Source: a virus. Taken from it: a DNA stretch of 47,897 bases. The notes beneath the pieces are model-generated. The model ran no database searches and was not told where the DNA came from. It saw only the letters and a program-made list of their open reading frames with translations. This document shows, piece after piece, positions 6,147-42,100 of this stretch (position 1 is its first letter; each line of letters opens with the position of its first letter). Where the stretch lies: IMG/VR virus record IMGVR_UViG_3300021165_001226, positions 1 through 47,897 of that record. One strand, written 5' to 3'. The translations under genes and the position numbers were made by a program.

Positions 6147-6446
6147 ATGAATAACAAAGTAACAGAACAAATGGAGAAGTGCTACCAAGAGTACGAGTCT
6201 CTGGAATTTAATGTGCAGAATCTAAGTGACAAAGATATGTTTAGAGAAATTCTAAAGATATTTTTTAAGAACATGGATAAAACAATTTTTAAGACCGATA
6301 AAGCCGGTAATGTAATTTACAATGCACAAGGCGAAGAAATTATAAACTGGTTTGAGTTAGTTAAGGTCGTATTATTTAGTTTAACTAAGTTAATAGGTAA
6401 TTACATGGCTCTCAAGAAAATCGCACAAGTAAAAAGACTACTATGA
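6147..6446 (+). CDS. Hypothetical protein, 99 aa
   Basis: The start is taken at ATG 6147 (MNNKVTEQMEKCYQEYES); the in-frame TTG at 6117 is less likely. The N-terminal half is charged and helical. Near the C terminus a moderately hydrophobic helix (WFELVKVVLFSLTKLIGNYMAL) is followed by a basic tail. Size, a single C-terminal hydrophobic helix and its place between a lytic enzyme and a protease would fit a holin/spanin-type accessory gene, but the family is not recognised. Its TGA stop overlaps the protease ATG (ATGA), suggesting coupled translation. Confidence 0.65.
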   Translation: MNNKVTEQMEKCYQEYESLEFNVQNLSDKDMFREILKIFFKNMDKTIFKTDKAGNVIYNAQGEEIINWFELVKVVLFSLTKLIGNYMALKKIAQVKRLL

Positions 6447-7978
6447 AATTTTCCGCATCCGACATACAATTCGCTCAAAAAATAAACTTTGAGCTAGTTG
6501 CTAAATATTTTAATGCTCTAGGGGAGAATCACGAAATCATTCTTCCCCCTCCTCCTACCCCGATTTCCGCAACACTACAGGCCAAAATACTTAGTGACGG
6601 TAATTGGGGTTATGGTTTTTTAAAAACAGATTTTATTGCAGAAAAATTAAAAAGGGGTGAGAAACCAACTCGTAAAATATTGTATTGTGTTGTCGATACT
6701 ATGGCATATCCAAATCACGACGCTCTGGTATCAAACAATCAATTTGTGCCAAAAAAGTTTTGCTTGGACCATACGACCGATAAAAATGGAATCGATGGTC
6801 ACGGACATGGCCACCACGTTGCAGGTACTATTATGGGGAAACACCCTAATGGATTCCCGCTTGGTTTGGCCTATGTTAACAATGCCCCTACGGAAGATCT
6901 CATCATGGCGCAAAAGGGACTAAATTCTAATGGCTCCGGTGCTTCTGATTGGTTAGTTAATGCAATACTTCATGCCGCTAATGTATGGGAAACCGAGTAT
7001 AAAAAACTAGGTTACTTGCTAGTTTACAATTTTTCTTGGGGTGGGGGATCTGAAACTCCTGCTATTTCGAGGGCTATAGAGCAAGTTATATCAAGAGGAG
7101 CTTTTGTTAACGCTGCTGCCGGTAACGACGGAAGTGGCGTAGTAGGATGGCCTGCTGCTCATAAAGAAGTTATTTCCTGGGCTGCTTGTGATAACACAGG
7201 TAAGAGAGCTAACTTCTCTCAATACGGAACAGAATTAGAGGCTATAGCTCCTGGAGTTTCTATCTGGTCTACTTTTAAAGATAACGGAAGCTATGTGTCT
7301 TGGGATGGTACAAGTATGGCTACACCTCACGGTACAGCTGCTATGGGACATGTATTGAAGTGGTACCCTGAAATAAAGAATCAAGCTGATCTTATCGCGT
7401 TTCTTTCTACTAATGCGGTAGATGGCGGGCCGGAAGGTAAAGATATTGAATACGGGTATGGATTTCCTATGTTAGATAAGTTGCTGTCTAAAACTGCTCC
7501 TGCCCCACAACCGGTAGATCCTCCTAAAGATATTCAAGAGCCTGCAATCCCGCTCCCAGGTAAAAGATCTACATTCAGAAATTTAACATTAGAAATAGAT
7601 GCTACACATTCTTTTTTATGGAAAGTGCAGCATCCATGGAATGATAAAAAGTCAAATTCAACCGTATTTAATATTAACAAATTGCCGATTTCTGAAAAGG
7701 ATAGGTTAACTAATTCAAAGATATACAAGAAAATATACATTAAAAAAGTAGCTATTCAAACAAAAACATTATTGGATTACAATGAAGTCTTGTTTTTTTA
7801 CAGCCAGTATTTTGATAAATTCTTTAACGAGAATGGTGTTTTCGTAAAAAATGGTTCTGATGCTCACGACATTTGTAGCTATATAGTTAATCATTTACAA
7901 AGTACATTAAAAATTACCATAAATACAATAGAAGCTGTAGATGAAATAGGAAATAAAATAATTTATACAATCAAATAA
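6443..7978 (+). CDS. Subtilisin-like serine protease (S8 family)
   Basis: All parts of the subtilase catalytic site are present: Asp85 in YCVVDTM, His122 in GHGHHVAGT, oxyanion Asn228 in AAAGNDG and Ser291 in DGTSMATPH. The catalytic domain spans about residues 70-350. A Pro-rich linker (about 355-375) leads to a C-terminal domain of about 140 residues not recognised by eye. No clear signal peptide is seen; the N-terminal 60 residues could be a propeptide. Phage subtilases are uncommon; possible roles are virion-protein maturation, host-envelope penetration or attack on host proteins. The gene ends exactly where the convergent oxygenase gene ends. Confidence 0.93.
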   Translation: MKFSASDIQFAQKINFELVAKYFNALGENHEIILPPPPTPISATLQAKILSDGNWGYGFLKTDFIAEKLKRGEKPTRKILYCVVDTMAYPNHDALVSNNQFVPKKFCLDHTTDKNGIDGHGHGHHVAGTIMGKHPNGFPLGLAYVNNAPTEDLIMAQKGLNSNGSGASDWLVNAILHAANVWETEYKKLGYLLVYNFSWGGGSETPAISRAIEQVISRGAFVNAAAGNDGSGVVGWPAAHKEVISWAACDNTGKRANFSQYGTELEAIAPGVSIWSTFKDNGSYVSWDGTSMATPHGTAAMGHVLKWYPEIKNQADLIAFLSTNAVDGGPEGKDIEYGYGFPMLDKLLSKTAPAPQPVDPPKDIQEPAIPLPGKRSTFRNLTLEIDATHSFLWKVQHPWNDKKSNSTVFNINKLPISEKDRLTNSKIYKKIYIKKVAIQTKTLLDYNEVLFFYSQYFDKFFNENGVFVKNGSDAHDICSYIVNHLQSTLKITINTIEAVDEIGNKIIYTIK

Positions 7979-29430: not shown

Positions 29431-29454
29431 TAATTAGTTAATATTTACTAATTA
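29431..29454. terminator. A/T-only hairpin after polymerase gene
   Basis: An 8-bp perfect stem TAATTAGT/ACTAATTA with an 8-base A/T loop overlaps the stop codon of the DNA polymerase gene. It has no G/C clamp or T tract, so termination is doubtful; it could influence mRNA ends between the polymerase and the zinc-ribbon gene. Confidence 0.3.
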
Positions 29455-31809
29455 ATGTCCTTCTTGCCAATTTTTAGATAATTCCGGAGGTGCTTTTAAA
29501 TCTATACTTAATTTTGTAGAGTTTTCCATTATATCTTGAACTATGCTTAATGCCTCGTCTTTCCTAGAGTTTTCTACTTTAAATATTAACTGGTCATGGA
29601 TTTGAGCTACTACAAGTCCTTTGATTCCTCTTTTTATAAATTCTCTATTAACTAATAAAGCGGATTTATTTACAATATGAGCCGCCATAGACTGTATTTG
29701 AATATTCTTGGCATTGTTTAATCCGTTTTTATAATCTCTATACATGTCTATAATTTCTTTCTCACTGAAATCTCTTTTTAAACTTTCTCTAAAATCATAA
29801 TCAAGTAGCTTGTCTTTAAATTTACTGTAATATTCTTTTACTTTTGGTAAATGTCTTATTCTTCCGGATTGGCATTTAATGTATCCATTATTTTTTACAA
29901 ACTCTTCACTTTCTATCATCCATTTTTTAAGTTCTGGATAGGCATTTAAGTATCCATCTATTAATATTTTAGCTTCTTTTGTGGGAACCTCTATAGTTTT
30001 ACCTAAAGCGAAAGCAGACATCCCGTAAGGAATGCCTAAAGAATAACTTTTTGCTTTGTTTCTCAAGGTCTTGTTGACTTTCTTTAAAAAATTACTGTCC
30101 TCCGGATCTGCCGAGTATTGAGGTAATTTTTCTGTGTCTATTGCAATACGGGAGTAGAAATCCCAATTCTTTCTGAATATATCCCTAAGGCCTTCGTCTC
30201 CGCTTATATGTGCGAATATGTGAGGTTCTAAACTAACATAATCACAATCTATGAAAGTAGTATCTTCGTCGCAGATAAAAAAGGTTCTAATCATATTAGT
30301 GTACTTATACACTCTAGGATCTACTCCTTGATCTGATTCAAAAGGTCTCGGAAGTTGCTGCGCGTCACTACTATATCTTCCGGAAACAGTTCCGTGCTGT
30401 TGGTAATAAAAATAGTATCTTCCATCTTCGCAGCTATCTAAAAATCTGTCCATGTACGCTGATTTCAGTTTATTCAGCTTATTGTACACAGTTAATTTTT
30501 TACTCCAATCATATTTATCACTTATGGATTCTACAAAAGACTCATTAAACTGTGCTGCTCCTTTATCTGTATATGTTATTGGCTTTTCGTTTAAAAAATT
30601 AAATACAAAAGAAGCTAATTGCTGTTTTGAATTAATATTTATAAGTTCATTATCATTGGCTTTTTTCCACAAATTAACAGAGGAAAAAGCTAGAAGTTTT
30701 TTAAGATTATCTGAAATAGCTGTAGGTAGAAATGATTCTCCTAAAAGATATGTTTTTATCTCGCTGTCAGGTAAAGTTAGTACTTTATTTTTTAATATTT
30801 TTATTTCATTTTTATCATTTAAAAAATGATTAGAAATTCCGGCTAATTTAACAAGTTCCGGTAAGATAGCACCTCTTACTGGAATCCATGAATTATTTTC
30901 TTTCTTAAATGAAGGATACTTGCTATTAGCGGTAGAATAAACCCAACTTTTAAATTCATTAGACTCTCTTAATGAAGCATACACCTCTTCTTTTATAACT
31001 TTTATGTCTTCTATAATATCTCTCTGAGCGCCTTCAATTTTATTGAAGTCCATTAAAATTCCCTCTCTTTCCATAGGAACCGTTACCTCCTTATATAGAG
31101 GCATTACTTCAATATTATAGAAAAAATCTTCAAGTCCTTCCTTTTCTAACACTTTAGAAAAAAGAAGATAAATCCTTAATGTTAAATCGGTATCTGCACA
31201 GGCGTACTTTGATAGAATACTTAAATCAGCCTTATATATTTCAAAATTACTTTGGGTTACAAGACCTCCATTATTTTTTACAGACTCTTTCATCAAAATC
31301 TGTTCTTCGTTCGCTTCTTTGTCAACATCTAAATCTATGTACTTTTGAACAAGTTTTCCAATAGACTTAAGAGCAAATGGTCTGCCGTATCCAATAGATC
31401 CCTCCTCTCTAGTTGTATGAACTAATAGAATAGTATCTGCGTGTAAAGATGGGAGTAAATCAATTCCATAATTACTTAGTACAATAGAAGTATCATAAGA
31501 GGCATTGTGCATTATTAGCTTCTTACCTACTAATTTATTAATAAGACCTTTGGCTAATTTAACATTACTGTAAGAATCTGTGGACAAAGCAATTAGTTCT
31601 TGTTTTTCTACAGACCACTCATGAGTAGGTAGATAGTAAGATAGCCCAGGCTCAAACCCAAATGACATGCCTACGATAAGGTCTTTTCTTACATTAAGGC
31701 CTGTTGACTCCACGTCAAAACTTATAATGCTGTAGGTATTTATCTTCTCAGCTAAATCCTTTACTTCATCTAAGTTTTTACATGTAATATAATTTTTTAT
31801 GATTGCCAT
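29452..31809 (-). CDS. Family A DNA polymerase (PolA-like) with 3'-5' exonuclease
   Basis: This 785-aa polymerase has an N-terminal DEDD exonuclease (FDVEST with Asp32/Glu34, HNASYD, YACADTDLT). The polymerase domain carries the TVSGRYSSDAQQLPR fingers segment, motif A FIDCDYVSLEPHIF (Asp523), motif B TLRNKAKSYSLGIPYG (Arg583, Lys587, Tyr595) and motif C AQIHDQLIFKV (His738, Asp739). Motif C has Gln where many enzymes have Glu (HDE). The 5'-nuclease domain of bacterial Pol I is absent; a separate FEN-like gene lies at 36769-37791. It is probably the replicative polymerase, since T4-type family B polymerase is not seen here. Confidence 0.97.
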   Translation of the reverse strand: MAIIKNYITCKNLDEVKDLAEKINTYSIISFDVESTGLNVRKDLIVGMSFGFEPGLSYYLPTHEWSVEKQELIALSTDSYSNVKLAKGLINKLVGKKLIMHNASYDTSIVLSNYGIDLLPSLHADTILLVHTTREEGSIGYGRPFALKSIGKLVQKYIDLDVDKEANEEQILMKESVKNNGGLVTQSNFEIYKADLSILSKYACADTDLTLRIYLLFSKVLEKEGLEDFFYNIEVMPLYKEVTVPMEREGILMDFNKIEGAQRDIIEDIKVIKEEVYASLRESNEFKSWVYSTANSKYPSFKKENNSWIPVRGAILPELVKLAGISNHFLNDKNEIKILKNKVLTLPDSEIKTYLLGESFLPTAISDNLKKLLAFSSVNLWKKANDNELININSKQQLASFVFNFLNEKPITYTDKGAAQFNESFVESISDKYDWSKKLTVYNKLNKLKSAYMDRFLDSCEDGRYYFYYQQHGTVSGRYSSDAQQLPRPFESDQGVDPRVYKYTNMIRTFFICDEDTTFIDCDYVSLEPHIFAHISGDEGLRDIFRKNWDFYSRIAIDTEKLPQYSADPEDSNFLKKVNKTLRNKAKSYSLGIPYGMSAFALGKTIEVPTKEAKILIDGYLNAYPELKKWMIESEEFVKNNGYIKCQSGRIRHLPKVKEYYSKFKDKLLDYDFRESLKRDFSEKEIIDMYRDYKNGLNNAKNIQIQSMAAHIVNKSALLVNREFIKRGIKGLVVAQIHDQLIFKVENSRKDEALSIVQDIMENSTKLSIDLKAPPELSKNWQEGH

Positions 31810-35400: not shown

Positions 35401-36765
35401 TTAAATTTCATTGTACTCTTTGAAAAATCTATCTACTTCGGCAGGATCAAAAGCACTTGAATTTTTTGGAGCGGGGCCTCTATCATCATCATCTACATCT
35501 GCTATTAGACTATTTATGACATGCTTTCCACATCTTGTATCTAATGCTCCTTCAAATGATAATCCTAAATCTCCTAATCTTGATGCTACAATGTGATAAA
35601 TGTTTTTTCTTGATAATGAGAACATGAAATCACATACCATGAGAACATTATATGATTCTGCAATATGTTCTCCATTTACAATTTTAGCTGATTCTGATGT
35701 TCTATTTGCTTGAGATGGAACCCATGCTGGGACTCTATATTCATCTGCTATGTTTCTAATGTCTGTAAAGATTTCATCTAATGCAAATCTCTTCTCTGTC
35801 TTTGTAGATTTTAGTAATTTTGGATCATCTATAATGATTAATCCCGGCGAAATTCCTTGATGGATACACTGATCTAAATGTCCTCTGATAGTCATTGTAG
35901 ATGCCTTGTATGCCCCGTATTTCTTAATAATTAACTTGCCTGGAATTTCATCCATTTTCTTATTGATATAAGGCATATTATCCTTAGACAAGTTATCTAA
36001 TGATATGTCTGTGATGTAAGCGTCAATCCTCTTTGAAATTTGAGTAGGATATAACTCCATGGTATAGTAGATTACGTTTACTCCTAACTCCATAGCGTGA
36101 GCAGCTAAGGATATTAGTAACCATGATTTACCTCCCTTCGGTGGACATAGTACAACACCTAATTCACCATAAGATAAACCTCCTTTCATGTAGGAATTAA
36201 GAACAGGCCATGGAGTAGGAATCGGATTTCTATCATCTTCCATGTATCTATTTTCCAAAGTTTCCTCATACATGTAGCCTAAGTCCAATTCTGATCCGGC
36301 GTTGTGTGCTTTGTTTATAGCGGAAAACGCAGCATCAAAATCATTTCTTTTAACTAAATCAACAGCACTTCTCAAAGCTTTTACGTACTCTCTATTCCTG
36401 CAAAACTCCACGATTTTATCCTTAACGTGTTGCAAGTCCTTTGAGTCAGCGAAATCTAAAGAACTCTTAAGAAACATGTAGATACTCTGCGCGTGTATCT
36501 TGTTTCTCTCCGTTTGGGAATCATTTTCGTCCTTGTTTGCTAACTCCTTAATGTTTATTTTCAAAACATCTATTGTAGGTTGTATTTTGTATGTCTCATA
36601 ATAGTCATACATTTTTTCTACTACCCAAGACATAGCCTCGTTCTCAAAATAATTTGGATCAAGAATGTCAATAATGCGAGTAAAGAAATTCTCGTCATTA
36701 AGCAAATTGTACAAAACCTTCTTTTGAAAATCCGTACCAAAAGAATTTAATAAATTGGCGGTCAT
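35401..36765 (-). CDS. Replicative DNA helicase (DnaB/T4 gp41-like)
   Basis: The 454-aa protein has a helical N-terminal domain (residues 1-165) and a RecA-fold helicase domain. Walker A is LCPPKGGKSW (about 208-215), followed by NVIYYTMELYP, a GLIIIDDPKLL Walker B and VPSQANRTSE, as in DnaB (motif H3 Gln). A PPKGGKS form replaces GxGKT. It ends in FKEYNEI. The gene lies between NrdB and the FEN-like exonuclease, inside the replication module; it would unwind DNA at the fork. No primase is seen in the window. Confidence 0.92.
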   Translation of the reverse strand: MTANLLNSFGTDFQKKVLYNLLNDENFFTRIIDILDPNYFENEAMSWVVEKMYDYYETYKIQPTIDVLKINIKELANKDENDSQTERNKIHAQSIYMFLKSSLDFADSKDLQHVKDKIVEFCRNREYVKALRSAVDLVKRNDFDAAFSAINKAHNAGSELDLGYMYEETLENRYMEDDRNPIPTPWPVLNSYMKGGLSYGELGVVLCPPKGGKSWLLISLAAHAMELGVNVIYYTMELYPTQISKRIDAYITDISLDNLSKDNMPYINKKMDEIPGKLIIKKYGAYKASTMTIRGHLDQCIHQGISPGLIIIDDPKLLKSTKTEKRFALDEIFTDIRNIADEYRVPAWVPSQANRTSESAKIVNGEHIAESYNVLMVCDFMFSLSRKNIYHIVASRLGDLGLSFEGALDTRCGKHVINSLIADVDDDDRGPAPKNSSAFDPAEVDRFFKEYNEI

Positions 36766-36768
36766 TAT

Positions 36769-37791
36769 TTATGATTTTAATCTGTTTACAAAGTTTCTAT
36801 GCCATGAATCAAAGTCATTAATCCTAGAGAAAAGCCCGTCGAACGCAAACATTTGCATAAATTCATAGTCATAACTAGCAGGTACAAAATCCTGCAAAAT
36901 TCTTCTTATTGCACTTTTTGTATGGTAAGAAACATCAACATTATGTAACTGAATTAATTTGTAGTTTAATTCTAATTTGTCAAAATCGTTAATGAGATTA
37001 TCTAACCCTTTGTATTTTTTACCCTCTGAAATCAAATCTTTTGCCCGGTTATAAAAGAAATCCAAATCTTCTATTTTAGTATTTCTTATTTCCGGAAAAA
37101 ATTTAATTATGTTTTTTTCTCCTATAGAACCGAAGCTAGGAATGTTATCGCTGCGGTCCCCTACAAAAGCCTTGTAATATACGAAGTTTTCTGGGATAAT
37201 TCCAAATTCTTCGACAACTTTTTTTGGAGAATACATGATTTTTTTTGTAGGGTTATAAACTTGTATGTTTTCCGATACTAACTGGAGGTAATCTTTATCG
37301 GATGACATTATGAATTTATATTTGTAATCATCTAATTCACTTGAGTTTAGGAGAATAGAAATAACATCATCTGCTTCAACACCGTCCATTATTAATTGAA
37401 CGACAGGTAGGTTATTTAAATACTCTATAAGCCTTCTAATTTGTCTTTCTGATTCCTTATCTGTACTTTCTGTCTTACTTTCGGTTAGTCTATTTAACTT
37501 GAGTCCTTTATGTTTGCCAGATTTGTATCCTTTGTACATTTTTTTTCTCCGTACAGATCCTCCTTGACCATCAAATACAACAATAACTTTATTTATATTG
37601 TAAGTCTTAACAAAAGAAAACATACTTTCTAAGAATCCAAAGGCACCTCCTATTGTGTGCCCATCCGTATTCAATGTCGGATAGGCACAAAAGCATCTGA
37701 TAAACAAATTAGTTCCATCTATTATAAGAACAGTCTTTTCGTTAGACATAGATCTATGGTTATCTAACAATTTTGATAAATCAATTGTCAT
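36769..37791 (-). CDS. FEN-like 5'-3' exonuclease (T4 RNase H-like)
   Basis: The 340-aa protein has the metal-ligand set of flap/5'-nucleases: VLIIDGTNLFIRC (Asp25), VIVVFDGQGGSVRRK, GVEADDVISILL, FIMSSDKDYLQL and FVGDRSDNIPSFGSIGEKN (helix-hairpin-helix region). This is the separate 5' nuclease needed for removal of RNA primers because the family A polymerase lacks that domain. Its 3' end overlaps neighbours by few bases (11 with the RecA gene), so replication genes are translationally coupled. Confidence 0.94.
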   Translation of the reverse strand: MTIDLSKLLDNHRSMSNEKTVLIIDGTNLFIRCFCAYPTLNTDGHTIGGAFGFLESMFSFVKTYNINKVIVVFDGQGGSVRRKKMYKGYKSGKHKGLKLNRLTESKTESTDKESERQIRRLIEYLNNLPVVQLIMDGVEADDVISILLNSSELDDYKYKFIMSSDKDYLQLVSENIQVYNPTKKIMYSPKKVVEEFGIIPENFVYYKAFVGDRSDNIPSFGSIGEKNIIKFFPEIRNTKIEDLDFFYNRAKDLISEGKKYKGLDNLINDFDKLELNYKLIQLHNVDVSYHTKSAIRRILQDFVPASYDYEFMQMFAFDGLFSRINDFDSWHRNFVNRLKS

Positions 37792-38959
37792 CTCCCGTTT
37801 CTTCTATGTGAATGAATGGAGTAGAATCTCCTTCGTCGCTACCGTCTCTTTTAATGTATGTTGTAATATAGTAATCAGAAATATTAGATAATATATCTTT
37901 ACGTATTTCTTCTCTAGAAAATAATTTATTATGAAAATCTTTTCTTTGGAATCTTATTTCCTCTATAATTTCTCCCGTTTCCCTATTACAATATTTATAA
38001 GTGTACCAGGCTCCGGAAGATGTTGCGATACCTTTATCTTTCAGGAAGTCCATGATTGAACTTACGTCATCAATTCCTGAATTATACATAATATTAAAGG
38101 ATGCTTTCCTGTGTGGGGGGCCTATTCTATTCTTAATAATTTCCGCTTCTGTAGTAATACCTAATGGTAAATCTTTCTCCGGACCTTGTATTTTACCTTT
38201 CTTAACTAATTTAACTCTTATGGATGAGTGAAAACCAATAGCCTTACCTCCTGATGTAGTGTAAGAATCTCCCATTCCTGGTCTAGCTTGTAGATTCTGC
38301 CTAAGTTGGTTAGTGAAAATTAAAAGAATCTTTTCTCTGCCTAACAAGTTTGTAAGTTTACGCATGGCTTTAGATATAATGATTGCCTTTTGCGTAGCCC
38401 ATCCATCTTTGTCATAATTACCCTCAATCTCGTCCTTTGTACTTGCTCCCATTACTGAATCCACAACAATAGTTACGATAACATCTTTATTAGATGCTCT
38501 CATTTGCTCTATTATAGTTTCGACTGAATTAAAAACATCTTCTATAACTTCATGCTGCACATATACGAAGTTCTTTTTTAAATCTACACCAATAGCACTT
38601 AGAAATTCTTTACTCACAGCACTCTCTGTATCTATAATAATTCCAATTCCTCCTTTCTTTTGTGTTTCTTTTATAGCGTGAGCAGCTAATAAAGATTTTC
38701 CGGATTGTTCCAGTCCTATTAATTCTACAATTTTACCTACAGGATACCCGCCATTTTCTCTATTGGAGATAGCCATATCTAGTGTTGTACATCCGGTAGG
38801 TATAAAATCACTAACATTTGTAGGTGCTAACGTAGAGTCTTCTAGCTTGTAAGCTACAGTCCCTATGTCTTTTTTGTACTTAGCATTTATCGCATCTATC
38901 AAAGATGATGCAAAAGATGTGTCAGTCCTCTCTTGGGAGGATTCCTTTTTCTTTGCCAT
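37781..38959 (-). CDS. RecA/UvsX-like recombinase
   Basis: The 392-aa protein carries Walker A LIGLEQSGKS (residues 81-90), IIIDTESAVSKEFL (catalytic Glu), Walker B TIVVDSVMG (Asp167) and LIFTNQLRQNLQARPGMGDS (L2 region with conserved Gln/Arg). SGGKAIGFHSSIRVKLVKKG follows, as in RecA. The C-terminal 120 residues differ from bacterial RecA and match UvsX-type recombinases of T4-like phages. It would drive strand invasion and recombination-dependent replication. It lies 13 bases from the SSB gene. Confidence 0.95.
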   Translation of the reverse strand: MAKKKESSQERTDTSFASSLIDAINAKYKKDIGTVAYKLEDSTLAPTNVSDFIPTGCTTLDMAISNRENGGYPVGKIVELIGLEQSGKSLLAAHAIKETQKKGGIGIIIDTESAVSKEFLSAIGVDLKKNFVYVQHEVIEDVFNSVETIIEQMRASNKDVIVTIVVDSVMGASTKDEIEGNYDKDGWATQKAIIISKAMRKLTNLLGREKILLIFTNQLRQNLQARPGMGDSYTTSGGKAIGFHSSIRVKLVKKGKIQGPEKDLPLGITTEAEIIKNRIGPPHRKASFNIMYNSGIDDVSSIMDFLKDKGIATSSGAWYTYKYCNRETGEIIEEIRFQRKDFHNKLFSREEIRKDILSNISDYYITTYIKRDGSDEGDSTPFIHIEETGDDN

Positions 38960-38972
38960 AATTAACGTTTTT

Positions 38973-39842
38973 TTATATAGAATCTAGAAATTTAGAAAAA
39001 TCGTCTTCAAGTGATTTGGTAGCTACTGGTTTTTCAACCTGTTTATTTCTTACCTCTTCCGTAGTTTCTTGTGTCTTTGTGCCACCTCTTATAATCTCTG
39101 TTGATTCCGGTGCCTTGCTTTTCGAGAATAAAGATCCCGCTAAAGAAGTTACCATTTTTTCAATCTCTTCTTTTGTATGAGTAACGTACAAATCCTCAAT
39201 ATTTCCCATTTCCTCATACTGTCTCTTAAAATCCTCAATAGTATAGCCTTCTTCCGCTCTTTCTATCAAATTAGTCGGGCTTCTCTTTGCTGTAATTTCT
39301 ACTCCACCTCCCGAAGGTTTAGTAATAACTAAGTCAGTTCCTATTTTTAAGTCAAAGATTTTTGACGAGTCTTCTCCTTCTTCCTCGAAAATAGTATTCA
39401 TGATATTGAATATTTTCTCGTAAGTCTTAGTGTTTACAGGCCATACTTTGATTCCTGACGATTCCTTTCCTCTTATTAGAACAGGAACATAGTAAAATTT
39501 TTGAGGAGAGAAGTACTTAATAAACTGCTTGTTGTTCTCATAATCTTCTCTGTACAATTTGTTTGCGAAAATCTCGGCAGGATCTTCTTGTTGGAAGGTC
39601 TTAGGGGATGCAAACTCATAATTGGCTAGACCTATTTTTGTAACGAAATCTCTACCATGAAGATAGACTGTGTAAAAAGGCCACTCAGGATCTCTTTTAT
39701 TTGGTACTATCCTAATGGTAGAAGTTCCGGATGTAGGTCTCCAAATATAATCAAAAATGTTTTTACCTTTCTTTCTACCTGTAGGACCGGAGTTAGAAAG
39801 TTTACTCGCTTCTTGTTTGAAACGTTCTGCAAAATTACTCAT
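38973..39842 (-). CDS. gp32-like single-stranded DNA-binding protein
   Basis: The 289-aa protein has the layout of phage gp32: a basic N-terminal segment (MSNFAERFKQEASKL), a beta-rich OB core with STIRIVPNKRDPEWPF and FYYVPVLIRGKESSG, and an acidic disordered C-terminal tail ending LEDDFSKFLDSI used for protein contacts. The zinc site of T4 gp32 is not seen. Its place directly before the RecA gene (in transcription order) agrees with a recombination-dependent replication machine. Confidence 0.9.
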   Translation of the reverse strand: MSNFAERFKQEASKLSNSGPTGRKKGKNIFDYIWRPTSGTSTIRIVPNKRDPEWPFYTVYLHGRDFVTKIGLANYEFASPKTFQQEDPAEIFANKLYREDYENNKQFIKYFSPQKFYYVPVLIRGKESSGIKVWPVNTKTYEKIFNIMNTIFEEEGEDSSKIFDLKIGTDLVITKPSGGGVEITAKRSPTNLIERAEEGYTIEDFKRQYEEMGNIEDLYVTHTKEEIEKMVTSLAGSLFSKSKAPESTEIIRGGTKTQETTEEVRNKQVEKPVATKSLEDDFSKFLDSI

Positions 39843-39853
39843 AACTATATAAA

Positions 39854-40264
39854 TTAAATGTTAGAAATATTCTTCTTGTAAAGAAACTTTAAGTCAATTA
39901 TTCTCAATCCATCAGATCCTGTCACTATTAGGCAATTCTCGTAAGCATACCAGTCAATTTTATAATTAACATCAAGTTTACCATTATTCGATTGCTCTAT
40001 AAGTATGTTAAGGCCATTTAGAGTGAATAAAGTTCCGGTTTCTTTATTTCTATGTAATATAAGGGTGGACGGAAGTAATGTAAAATCTTCCTCTCTGATA
40101 ACATTGTAACTTAAAATTAGTTCATCATTATCAGATGCATTTCTAAAAACAAATACACTATCGTTTGTTATATCATAAGTGTTTCTAATAGTCTTCAATG
40201 TACTTTCTATAAAATGCGGGTGGCAAAAAGTACATAATAATTTTGTAGGTTTCCTCTCAATCAT
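39854..40264 (-). CDS. Hypothetical protein, 136 aa, between SSB and polymerase-like gene
   Basis: An unrecognised protein (MIERKPTKLLCTFCHPHFIE...) with a CTFCHPHF cluster (Cys, Cys, His) near the start and a beta-rich middle (YNVIREEDFTLL; IDWYAYENCLIVTGSDGLRI). It overlaps the divergent polymerase-like gene by 4 bases (ATGA), so the two are translated together and may work together. It might bind zinc, but only one CxxC pair is evident. No function can be named. Confidence 0.65.
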   Translation of the reverse strand: MIERKPTKLLCTFCHPHFIESTLKTIRNTYDITNDSVFVFRNASDNDELILSYNVIREEDFTLLPSTLILHRNKETGTLFTLNGLNILIEQSNNGKLDVNYKIDWYAYENCLIVTGSDGLRIIDLKFLYKKNISNI

Positions 40265-41595
40265 GTTTTCATGTTTTCCAAATCAAAAGATTTCATGTTA
40301 AAATAGTTTTTTCCAATTTTCACAGATGAGCTAAACCCAGAATCGTTTATAATCTTTTGTATTCCCCTTAATGTTTCCAATCCATCTTCTCTGTCAAAAT
40401 CTAATAAGAAAGAATCATACACATATAATACGATTTGCGTTTTCTTCGACTGCAAATATACAATAATTTTACTAATAATGTCAAAAAAATGTTCAACTTC
40501 CATTAATTGTATAACATAAGAGAATAATTTTCCTTTTGTGTAGGAGTAATCATCTTTTAGATTCGATAGTTTTAAAGTTCTTACACAGTATGGAACAATA
40601 ACTTCTTTATCTTGAACCATTTGACTATATATCGAATCCCTATATTTATACAATGCACTAAAGAAAGGAATCTTCTTAGCATCCCCCCTTTCAGAATAAA
40701 TATTAGTGAAAGTGATTTTTTTAGCTTCATCGTATTCTTGCGGGGATATATTATTCTTCTTGAAATACATCTTTGCTAAATACATGTGAACATCTTCTTC
40801 TTCTAATGTATATCCAATGGCCTTTGCAATCAGATATAAATGAAATGACTTAATATCAAATTCCACTAATATCCCTCTATCATGCCTAGAAATGAATCCT
40901 AAGCGATGTTTTTCATCTTTTGGTATTGCACTAAGGTTAATACCATTACATGTCCCTACGGGCCTTCCTGTGGCATTATAGAGCATGTATTTAGGATGTA
41001 GTAAAGATGTTGTTAATTTCTTATTGTAAACTTCATTTATTTGAGGAATGTCAATGCATATTCCATTATCTCTAATATGATTTAAAGATGATAGAATAGA
41101 TGTATATTTTTCAATGACAGATGATTTTTTATCCAATGTGCTTAAATAGGATAGCTGACTATTAAAACATCTTAAGAACATGTAATATGGAATATAGATG
41201 TTATAGGATGTTGATGGATAATAAAATCTTTTGTACTTGGATGTAAAAGAATATAAATCTCCTAAGTATTCTGTATCTCCTTTGTTTAACCAATATAGTA
41301 ATGGGAACTCAGTTGAAAATTTACTGGGGAAATAATAATCAAAGATGTATTTAGATGAAGCTATTACATAATTAAATGATAATAATGTCTGTAATGTCTT
41401 TAATGTTATGTCTGATTTAAATTCTTCATGTTGTAATGCTATTGAATATGACTCATTTGATTTGTAGTCATGTATAAATAACATAGAGAGCCCCTCCGAA
41501 AAATTTGACATATCTTTCGGAATAGGAAACACAAAGGAACCTGAAAAATTAGTTTGGACCTCCCTTAGTTGATCCTCGTTCTCAATAACCATCAT
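40261..41595 (-). CDS. Divergent family A DNA-polymerase-like protein
   Basis: The C-terminal part of this 444-aa protein follows the PolA palm/fingers order. TGRPVGTCNGINLSAIPK (209-226) is the RxSSxxPNLQNIP-like segment. EFDIKSFHLYLIAKAIG is motif A, with catalytic Asp247. YDEAKKITFTNIY is motif B, with Lys292, Phe296 and Tyr300 at the O-helix spacing; the Arg754-equivalent is Tyr288. LYVYDSFLLDF is motif C, with Asp394, and with Tyr and Ser where HDE is usual. Both catalytic Asp are kept. The first 190 residues may be a decayed exonuclease. It is separate from the canonical PolA at 29452. It could be a translesion, primase-like or inactive partner. Confidence 0.7.
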   Translation of the reverse strand: MMVIENEDQLREVQTNFSGSFVFPIPKDMSNFSEGLSMLFIHDYKSNESYSIALQHEEFKSDITLKTLQTLLSFNYVIASSKYIFDYYFPSKFSTEFPLLYWLNKGDTEYLGDLYSFTSKYKRFYYPSTSYNIYIPYYMFLRCFNSQLSYLSTLDKKSSVIEKYTSILSSLNHIRDNGICIDIPQINEVYNKKLTTSLLHPKYMLYNATGRPVGTCNGINLSAIPKDEKHRLGFISRHDRGILVEFDIKSFHLYLIAKAIGYTLEEEDVHMYLAKMYFKKNNISPQEYDEAKKITFTNIYSERGDAKKIPFFSALYKYRDSIYSQMVQDKEVIVPYCVRTLKLSNLKDDYSYTKGKLFSYVIQLMEVEHFFDIISKIIVYLQSKKTQIVLYVYDSFLLDFDREDGLETLRGIQKIINDSGFSSSVKIGKNYFNMKSFDLENMKT

Positions 41596-42100
41596 CTATA
41601 TAAAACTCATTATAATTTACAATAAACCTCTTAAGTCCTGGAAAAGTTGTATCTGCACTTAAAACTTCATTCCTGTTTAATTGCGCTACTTTAACTTTAT
41701 CTCCACGGACTTTCCAATAGATTTCTGCAAATATAAGTCTATTTCTATTATCCTGCAAGTTTTTAGCAGAAAAATAATCATCTTTACTAATTTCTGTTAT
41801 AGATGTTATTGGTTTTATTCGTTTTTGGTAGAAATATCTTTTAAAATAAAGACCTTCTTCTTCTATAACTTCTTTTGTTGGTGTATATGGATTTATGTTA
41901 ATATACTCTACCATGGGCTCCGAACCAAGAGAAGAATATACCCTTCTCTTAAATTCGTACTCTAAAAATAATCTTTTTCTAGTATCCTTCCCGTTTATAC
42001 CTGCGTATGGTATTCTGTTGGTATAAAAATAATATCCTTTATACGGCATGTTATTTTCATCCCATAGAAAACCGCCTTCTGTGTAGAAAAAATTAGCCAT
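41582..42100 (-). CDS. Putative virion/baseplate protein, 172 aa
   Basis: The protein is unrecognised. It is tyrosine-rich, with FLWDENNMPYKGYYFYTNRI at the start. The motif YININPYTPTKEVIEEEGLY, then RYFYQKRI and ITEISKDDYF, resembles small structural proteins of large phages, and the N-terminal strand pattern looks like a tail or baseplate component. It starts immediately before the big baseplate-type gene and overlaps the polymerase-like gene by 14 bases, marking the border between replication and tail modules. Confidence 0.6.
   Translation of the reverse strand: MANFFYTEGGFLWDENNMPYKGYYFYTNRIPYAGINGKDTRKRLFLEYEFKRRVYSSLGSEPMVEYININPYTPTKEVIEEEGLYFKRYFYQKRIKPITSITEISKDDYFSAKNLQDNRNRLIFAEIYWKVRGDKVKVAQLNRNEVLSADTTFPGLKRFIVNYNEFYIDDGY

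Follow-up and report, generated by a model that had tools for sequence, protein, structure and literature searches.

A diverged divPolA1 polymerase in a phage sequence from IMG/VR: a second family-A enzyme with a remodelled active site and no thumb

We analysed a 47,897-nucleotide stretch of viral DNA (IMG/VR record IMGVR_UViG_3300021165_001226, positions 1 to 47,897; the whole stretch is called the window here). It encodes a canonical replicative PolA and, within a conserved gene cassette, a second, highly divergent family-A-type polymerase, called divPolA1 after the published family to which it belongs. The genes concerned lie on the minus strand:

41582..42100 (-), g172, conserved upstream gene, 172 aa, 14-bp overlap with divPolA1
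40261..41595 (-), divPolA1 gene, 444 aa, with an apparently inactive 3'-5' exonuclease-like domain and a thumbless family-A polymerase domain
39854..40264 (-), g136, conserved gene downstream of divPolA1, with which it shares 4 bp
38973..39842 (-), gp32-like single-strand DNA-binding protein (SSB), PF08804 E 5e-9
37781..38959 (-), UvsX/RecA recombinase, PF00154 E 3e-47
36769..37791 (-), separate 5'-3' exonuclease, PF02739 E 1e-32
35401..36765 (-), DnaB-type helicase, PF03796 E 5e-12
29452..31809 (-), canonical replicative PolA with a 3'-5' exonuclease domain, 785 aa, PF00476 E 5e-63, PF01612 E 4e-10

A first-pass annotation of the window had placed the divergent gene directly after the tail genes in transcription order and overlapping the gene of a small CxxC protein. 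The tail genes do lie upstream, and divPolA1 shares 4 bp with g136. The CxxC of g136 is not conserved, just its first Cys being nearly invariant, so no zinc site is implied. The AlphaFold model of g136 had a pLDDT of 93, and residues N54, H71, R72, N83, N86, N93 and W105 were invariant among its relatives. A fold search against the PDB gave no match (best E 0.18), and a profile search yielded nothing significant; judged from the model, g136 may have a new fold and may work together with divPolA1 or the SSB. Profile searches with g172 returned only a match of a single member to a PHROG attachment protein. Scans for promoters and terminators found no more than they did in shuffled sequences.

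The order hub, g172, divPolA1, g136, SSB, UvsX, 5' exonuclease, DnaB helicase was found in 151 distinct loci, with breaks essentially at contig ends only. As the polymerase itself had served to pick these loci, g136 was used as the anchor of an independent scan, in which divPolA1 was present in 51/51 judgeable loci. Apparent loss of divPolA1 in nine g136-anchored loci was set aside as uninformative, the contigs ending in or close to intervening ORFs. The junction of divPolA1 and g136 is a variable insertion spot: in some relatives one ORF or several, long or short, lie between the two genes (e.g. locus L032, 9010-10412), where the window has the 4-bp overlap instead. The separate 5'-3' exonuclease was encoded in 76 of the 77 divPolA1 loci with room for it. 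It matched positions 1-253 of the NCBIfam DNA polymerase I model (E 3e-44) and is a homologue of the nuclease domain at the N terminus of that enzyme. Co-divergence with divPolA1 reached r 0.97 for the 5' nuclease and 0.94–0.95 for the hub, g136 and the helicase. In locus L078 the UvsX-like match extends across two adjacent ORFs (242 and 280 aa), a possible intron, intein or frameshift.

Searched alone against Pfam, PHROGs and PDB sequences, the window divPolA1 had no significant match, and thus none to an unrelated family; an autophagy protein, PARG and HUWE1 appeared in direct searches at chance level only. The protein has no Pfam match of its own, and its homology to family A was traced through intermediates and structure. 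When phage records were searched with tblastn, three relatives were recovered: one from an uncultured 484-kb phage (E 7e-43), one from Flavobacterium phage immuto (E 4e-33) and one from Microcystis phage Mel-JY01 (E 1e-9). The immuto protein is annotated as "DNA polymerase family A" and matches Pfam DNA_pol_A (PF00476) with 43.9 bits, above the 34.3-bit cut-off. The same Pfam model was matched by 40/52 family members at E <= 0.01, and the family profile matched Klenow chains with E 5.5e-7. In Mel-JY01 the protein labelled "DNA polymerase I" (PP395634.1, 55792-56832) falls in the separate 5'-3' exonuclease family, and the true divPolA1 (50397-51623) is labelled hypothetical.

The AlphaFold model of the window divPolA1, built from a 52-sequence alignment, had a pLDDT of 92.4 and a pTM of 0.90 and adopted a Klenow-type fold in which the palm is present, together with the right-hand fold and the family-A motifs A, B and C. 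The best solved matches in Foldseek were Pol theta (E 2.6e-16) and Klenow (E 8e-16, query TM 0.70–0.73), and further matches included KlenTaq, Pol nu and the apicoplast polymerase. The best 50 PDB fold matches were DNA polymerases, with no RNA polymerase among them, and in a test against T7-type single-subunit RNA polymerases the fold was not closer to RNA than to DNA polymerases. Viral fold matches were PolA-type, or polymerases where named. The suggestion of the first-pass annotation, that a second, divergent and specialised family-A-type polymerase stands beside a canonical PolA, is thus borne out.

Five segments of the protein bear on its activity:

41206..41595 (-), aa 1-130, N-terminal domain of the RNase H/DnaQ type, lacking the DxE residues of an exonuclease
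40993..41025 (-), aa 191-201, short loop in place of the thumb, from the model and the anchor-to-anchor length
40840..40857 (-), motif A, D247..H252, with an invariant His in place of the steric-gate Glu710
40696..40734 (-), motif B / O helix, Y288 K292 F296 Y300, Arg754 replaced by Tyr, invariant
40411..40419 (-), motif C, Y393 D394 S395, HDE replaced by YD[SA], invariant

The residues singled out beforehand (Asp247, Asp394, Lys292/Phe296/Tyr300, Tyr288 and Tyr-Asp-Ser 393-395) were all present and aligned to D705, D882, K758/F762/Y766, R754 and HDE 881-883 of E. coli Pol I. The alignment also paired H270 with H734, Q363 with Q849, R211 with R668 and R231 with R682. Among 55 non-redundant representatives of the family, D247 and D394 were invariant, and the equivalents of D705, D882, K758, F762, Y766, H734, Q849, R668 and R682 were kept in at least 54/55, so that the polymerase-like residues are beyond chance. 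Four replacements occurred in 55/55 representatives (E. coli numbering): E710 by His (H252), R754 by Tyr (Y288), H881 by Tyr (Y393) and E883 by Ser or Ala. Ascertainment bias of the motif scan was assessed by inspecting sequences recovered by one motif alone for the other motif: all 10 found via motif C only had D..H in motif A, and all 31 found via motif A only had YD[SA]. The single-motif sequences keep the other motif, so the four replacements are not artefacts of the search motifs.

Two changes were absent from the first-pass list, namely the replacement of the steric-gate Glu710 by His252 and the deletion of the thumb. In Pol I, Glu710 serves as the sugar gate, and it and R754 are important residues; as both are replaced, turnover or substrate choice in divPolA1 could differ much from that of Pol I. 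The PDB fold matches included 4dqr, a structure of Bacillus Pol I with rCTP and the corresponding E658A mutation. The canonical PolA of the window had been credited with all usual residues except HDQ; its F762 position is also changed, to Leu (KSYSLGIPYG), and its motif A reads DYVSLEPH. Motif A DYxSLEP and motif C HDQ were found in 14/14 replicative PolA sequences compared from phages of this lineage, and the replicative PolA of divPolA1 genomes keeps E710.

The thumb region was measured between conserved anchors, because a global hhalign alignment misplaced it. The interval from the NG turn (G178) to the TGR motif (R211) spans 19–37 residues in the divPolA1 family, compared with 123 aa in E. 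coli Pol I and 212–227 in the PolA replicases encoded alongside divPolA1 or in related genomes. Helices are absent from this region of the model, and the thumb is thus missing. In the N-terminal 130 aa, the order of strands and helices in the model is that of a DnaQ-like exonuclease. The domain was colinear with an exonuclease profile, the match being weak and not significant (E 0.094). In this weak alignment, DxE is absent from the exo I site of the window protein, and by sequence no conserved acids could be recognised as exo II or III. The 3'-5' exonuclease therefore appears to be inactivated. Overall, divPolA1 lacks the features by which canonical DNA polymerase I and phage PolA are recognised (thumb, E710, R754 and an HD[EQ] motif C).

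The replicase was a full PolA in 10 of 16 divPolA1 genome records, a PolB in 5 and neither in 1, a fragment. One replicase change suffices on the divPolA1 tree, with moderate support (77/90). With a full PolA encoded in the window, or a PolB in relatives, divPolA1 is not the replicase. In the 484-kb phage (LR756508.1, ~260600-266900), PolB is spread over two ORFs of 1022 and 625 aa, ~4–6 kb apart; the polymerase may be split, or an intervening element may separate its parts. A DnaG-type primase was found in 10/18 records searched, including every record > ~140 kb; those in which none was detected were shorter fragments (77–136 kb).

At least 585 stretches in IMG/VR encode divPolA1 relatives. 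Cellular matches were limited to 7 MAG contigs among 84,980 cellular species genomes, and the family therefore looks like a phage family. The seven contigs with the phage gene (L205-L211), one of them binned as the archaeon Nitrosopelagicus, are probably misbinned phage contigs. Between close relatives, dN/dS of the whole divPolA1 gene was 0.08–0.13 (pseudo-exonuclease part 0.09–0.25, polymerase part 0.08–0.11), which indicates purifying selection and a functional gene; the replicative PolA gave 0.04–0.07.

The family, which the first-pass annotation had taken to be undescribed, was named divPolA1 by Yutin et al. in 2024 (Virol J 21:200, PMC11348598; preprint PMC11188092); the window gene adds a diverged member to it. 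The published set comprises 14 phages with genomes of 155–190 kb, including Flavobacterium phage immuto, whose protein is the founding member (PMC11348598). The family is defined there as polymerases encoded in addition to a regular PolA, PolB or PolC, with a catalytic palm, a truncated thumb, an exonuclease inactivated by loss of the catalytic Asp, and replication genes downstream. As to function, the text of that article proposes a probable polymerase activity and an involvement in replication, nothing more specific. The name divPolA1 was not found in the later papers searched. The window protein is homologous to immuto divPolA1, through the tblastn match and linking intermediates, and resembles it in the catalytic palm, truncated thumb, inactive exonuclease, status as an extra polymerase and downstream replication genes. 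It differs in having only 25% identity, a long branch in the tree and a divergence too great for Pfam alone. The replacements E710H, R754Y and H881Y observed here are not discussed in the text of PMC11348598. In the same article, divPolA2 of barbaviruses is a second divergent PolA without a normal thumb beside a regular polymerase; by its description it differs in its other N-terminal domain and variable gene neighbourhood.

With Klenow and bacterial Pol I, divPolA1 shares the fold, motifs A, B and C and most dNTP-binding residues. It differs from Klenow in having no thumb, no exonuclease DxE, fewer residues separating the O helix from Q849, and the four invariant active-site replacements. In bacteria a 5' nuclease is fused to the Pol I-type polymerase, and in the divPolA1 cassette this part of Pol I is a separate gene. 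The retained metal site and nucleotide-binding set, the lack of thumb and proofreading, and the content of the cassette favour short-gap filling. Our preferred reading, to which we assign a probability of roughly 0.45, is that divPolA1 would be catalytically active in gap filling or repair, with low processivity, and would form a split Pol I with the 5' nuclease of the cassette; catalytic activity, low processivity, gap filling and the nuclease partnership are all things we infer. Such an enzyme would be a stripped-down Klenow-type polymerase that has lost the thumb holding the primer-template and the proofreading site, with a nucleotide pocket remodelled by E710H, R754Y, H881Y and E883S/A. 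It would most likely carry out short, non-processive synthesis on DNA presented by partner proteins, filling in the gaps that RNA-primer removal or recombination leaves behind. Its partners would be the SSB, UvsX and Pol I-type 5' nuclease encoded in the cassette, and polymerase and nuclease together would amount to DNA polymerase I split into two proteins. The evidence for the putative link to the 5' nuclease consists of the shared gene cassette and the co-divergence. DNA polymerase X of ASFV is a thumbless viral accessory polymerase that fills short gaps (PMC5330486). This precedent shows that gap filling by a viral polymerase is possible without a thumb; its likeness to divPolA1 is a functional analogy only, as PolX has an unrelated fold (family X) and belongs to an animal virus.

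The SSB, UvsX and helicase neighbours fit recombination-dependent replication or lesion bypass equally well. The reading that ranks second after short-gap filling, possible and clearly less probable, is a translesion or recombination polymerase that would extend mismatched or damaged primers, or primers in UvsX/SSB D-loops, as Pol theta and Pol nu do. SSB and UvsX adjoin divPolA1 in nearly all loci, proofreading appears lost, Pol theta is the best PDB fold match and Pol nu is among the top ones. However, the scores of Pol theta and Klenow (2.6e-16 and 8e-16) are essentially equal, and divPolA1 has no Pol theta-like insertion, being shorter rather than longer.

We regard as doubtful a primer-making or rNTP-using enzyme, in which the change of the Glu710 gate to His and the loss of the thumb would allow RNA or mixed primers or short transcripts to be made. 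The invariant His stands at the sugar-gating residue of Pol I and primases are likewise thumbless, but His itself can serve as a gate, the best 50 PDB fold matches are DNA polymerases with no RNA polymerase among them, and a separate DnaG-type primase is encoded in 10/18 records, all the largest included. This co-encoded primase rules out primer making by divPolA1 as the phage's sole priming route and leaves the primer-making role raised in the first-pass annotation unsupported; nothing favoured the regulatory role raised with it. We likewise consider it improbable that the sugar and triphosphate sites were re-tuned by E710 to His and R754 to Tyr for a non-standard substrate or start, which could be, for example, mixed RNA/DNA primers or a primer-free start at recombination intermediates, in parallel to DnaG.

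A non-catalytic structural protein of the replisome, acting as a DNA-binding or loading platform, for instance for the helicase via g136, would accord with the apparently dead exonuclease site, the missing thumb, the replacement of R754 and E883, and the translational coupling of divPolA1 to g136, which resembles no solved structure. It is nevertheless unlikely, since both metal-binding Asp residues and the equivalents of K758, F762, Y766, H734 and Q849 are invariant or nearly so at ~25–35% identity, which is unexpected if catalysis had been lost. The least probable alternative by far, a degenerate copy arisen by duplication of the replicative PolA, or else a displaced old replicase heading for loss, has in its favour a common superfamily and the frequent swapping of DNA polymerases in phages (PMC11348598), but neutral decay is refuted by the dN/dS of 0.08–0.13 and retention on both sides of the PolA/PolB change, and the substitutions are identical family-wide with no definite loss in the 51 judgeable g136-anchored loci.

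A large aquatic phage lineage, known from hundreds of contigs and few isolates, thus appears to keep a second polymerase under any replicase, and divPolA1 appears obligatory in it. Being kept whichever replicase is present, it does something that neither replicase does. The invariant changes and the one cultured host system, Flavobacterium sp. LMO8 with phage immuto, make the question testable, and a family-A enzyme without a thumb would also offer an uncommon way to probe DNA binding and nucleotide selection by Pol I. Elsewhere, the window encodes a subtilisin-like peptidase (6443-7978, (+), PF00082 E 2e-29), an example of a phage-encoded enzyme of this type.
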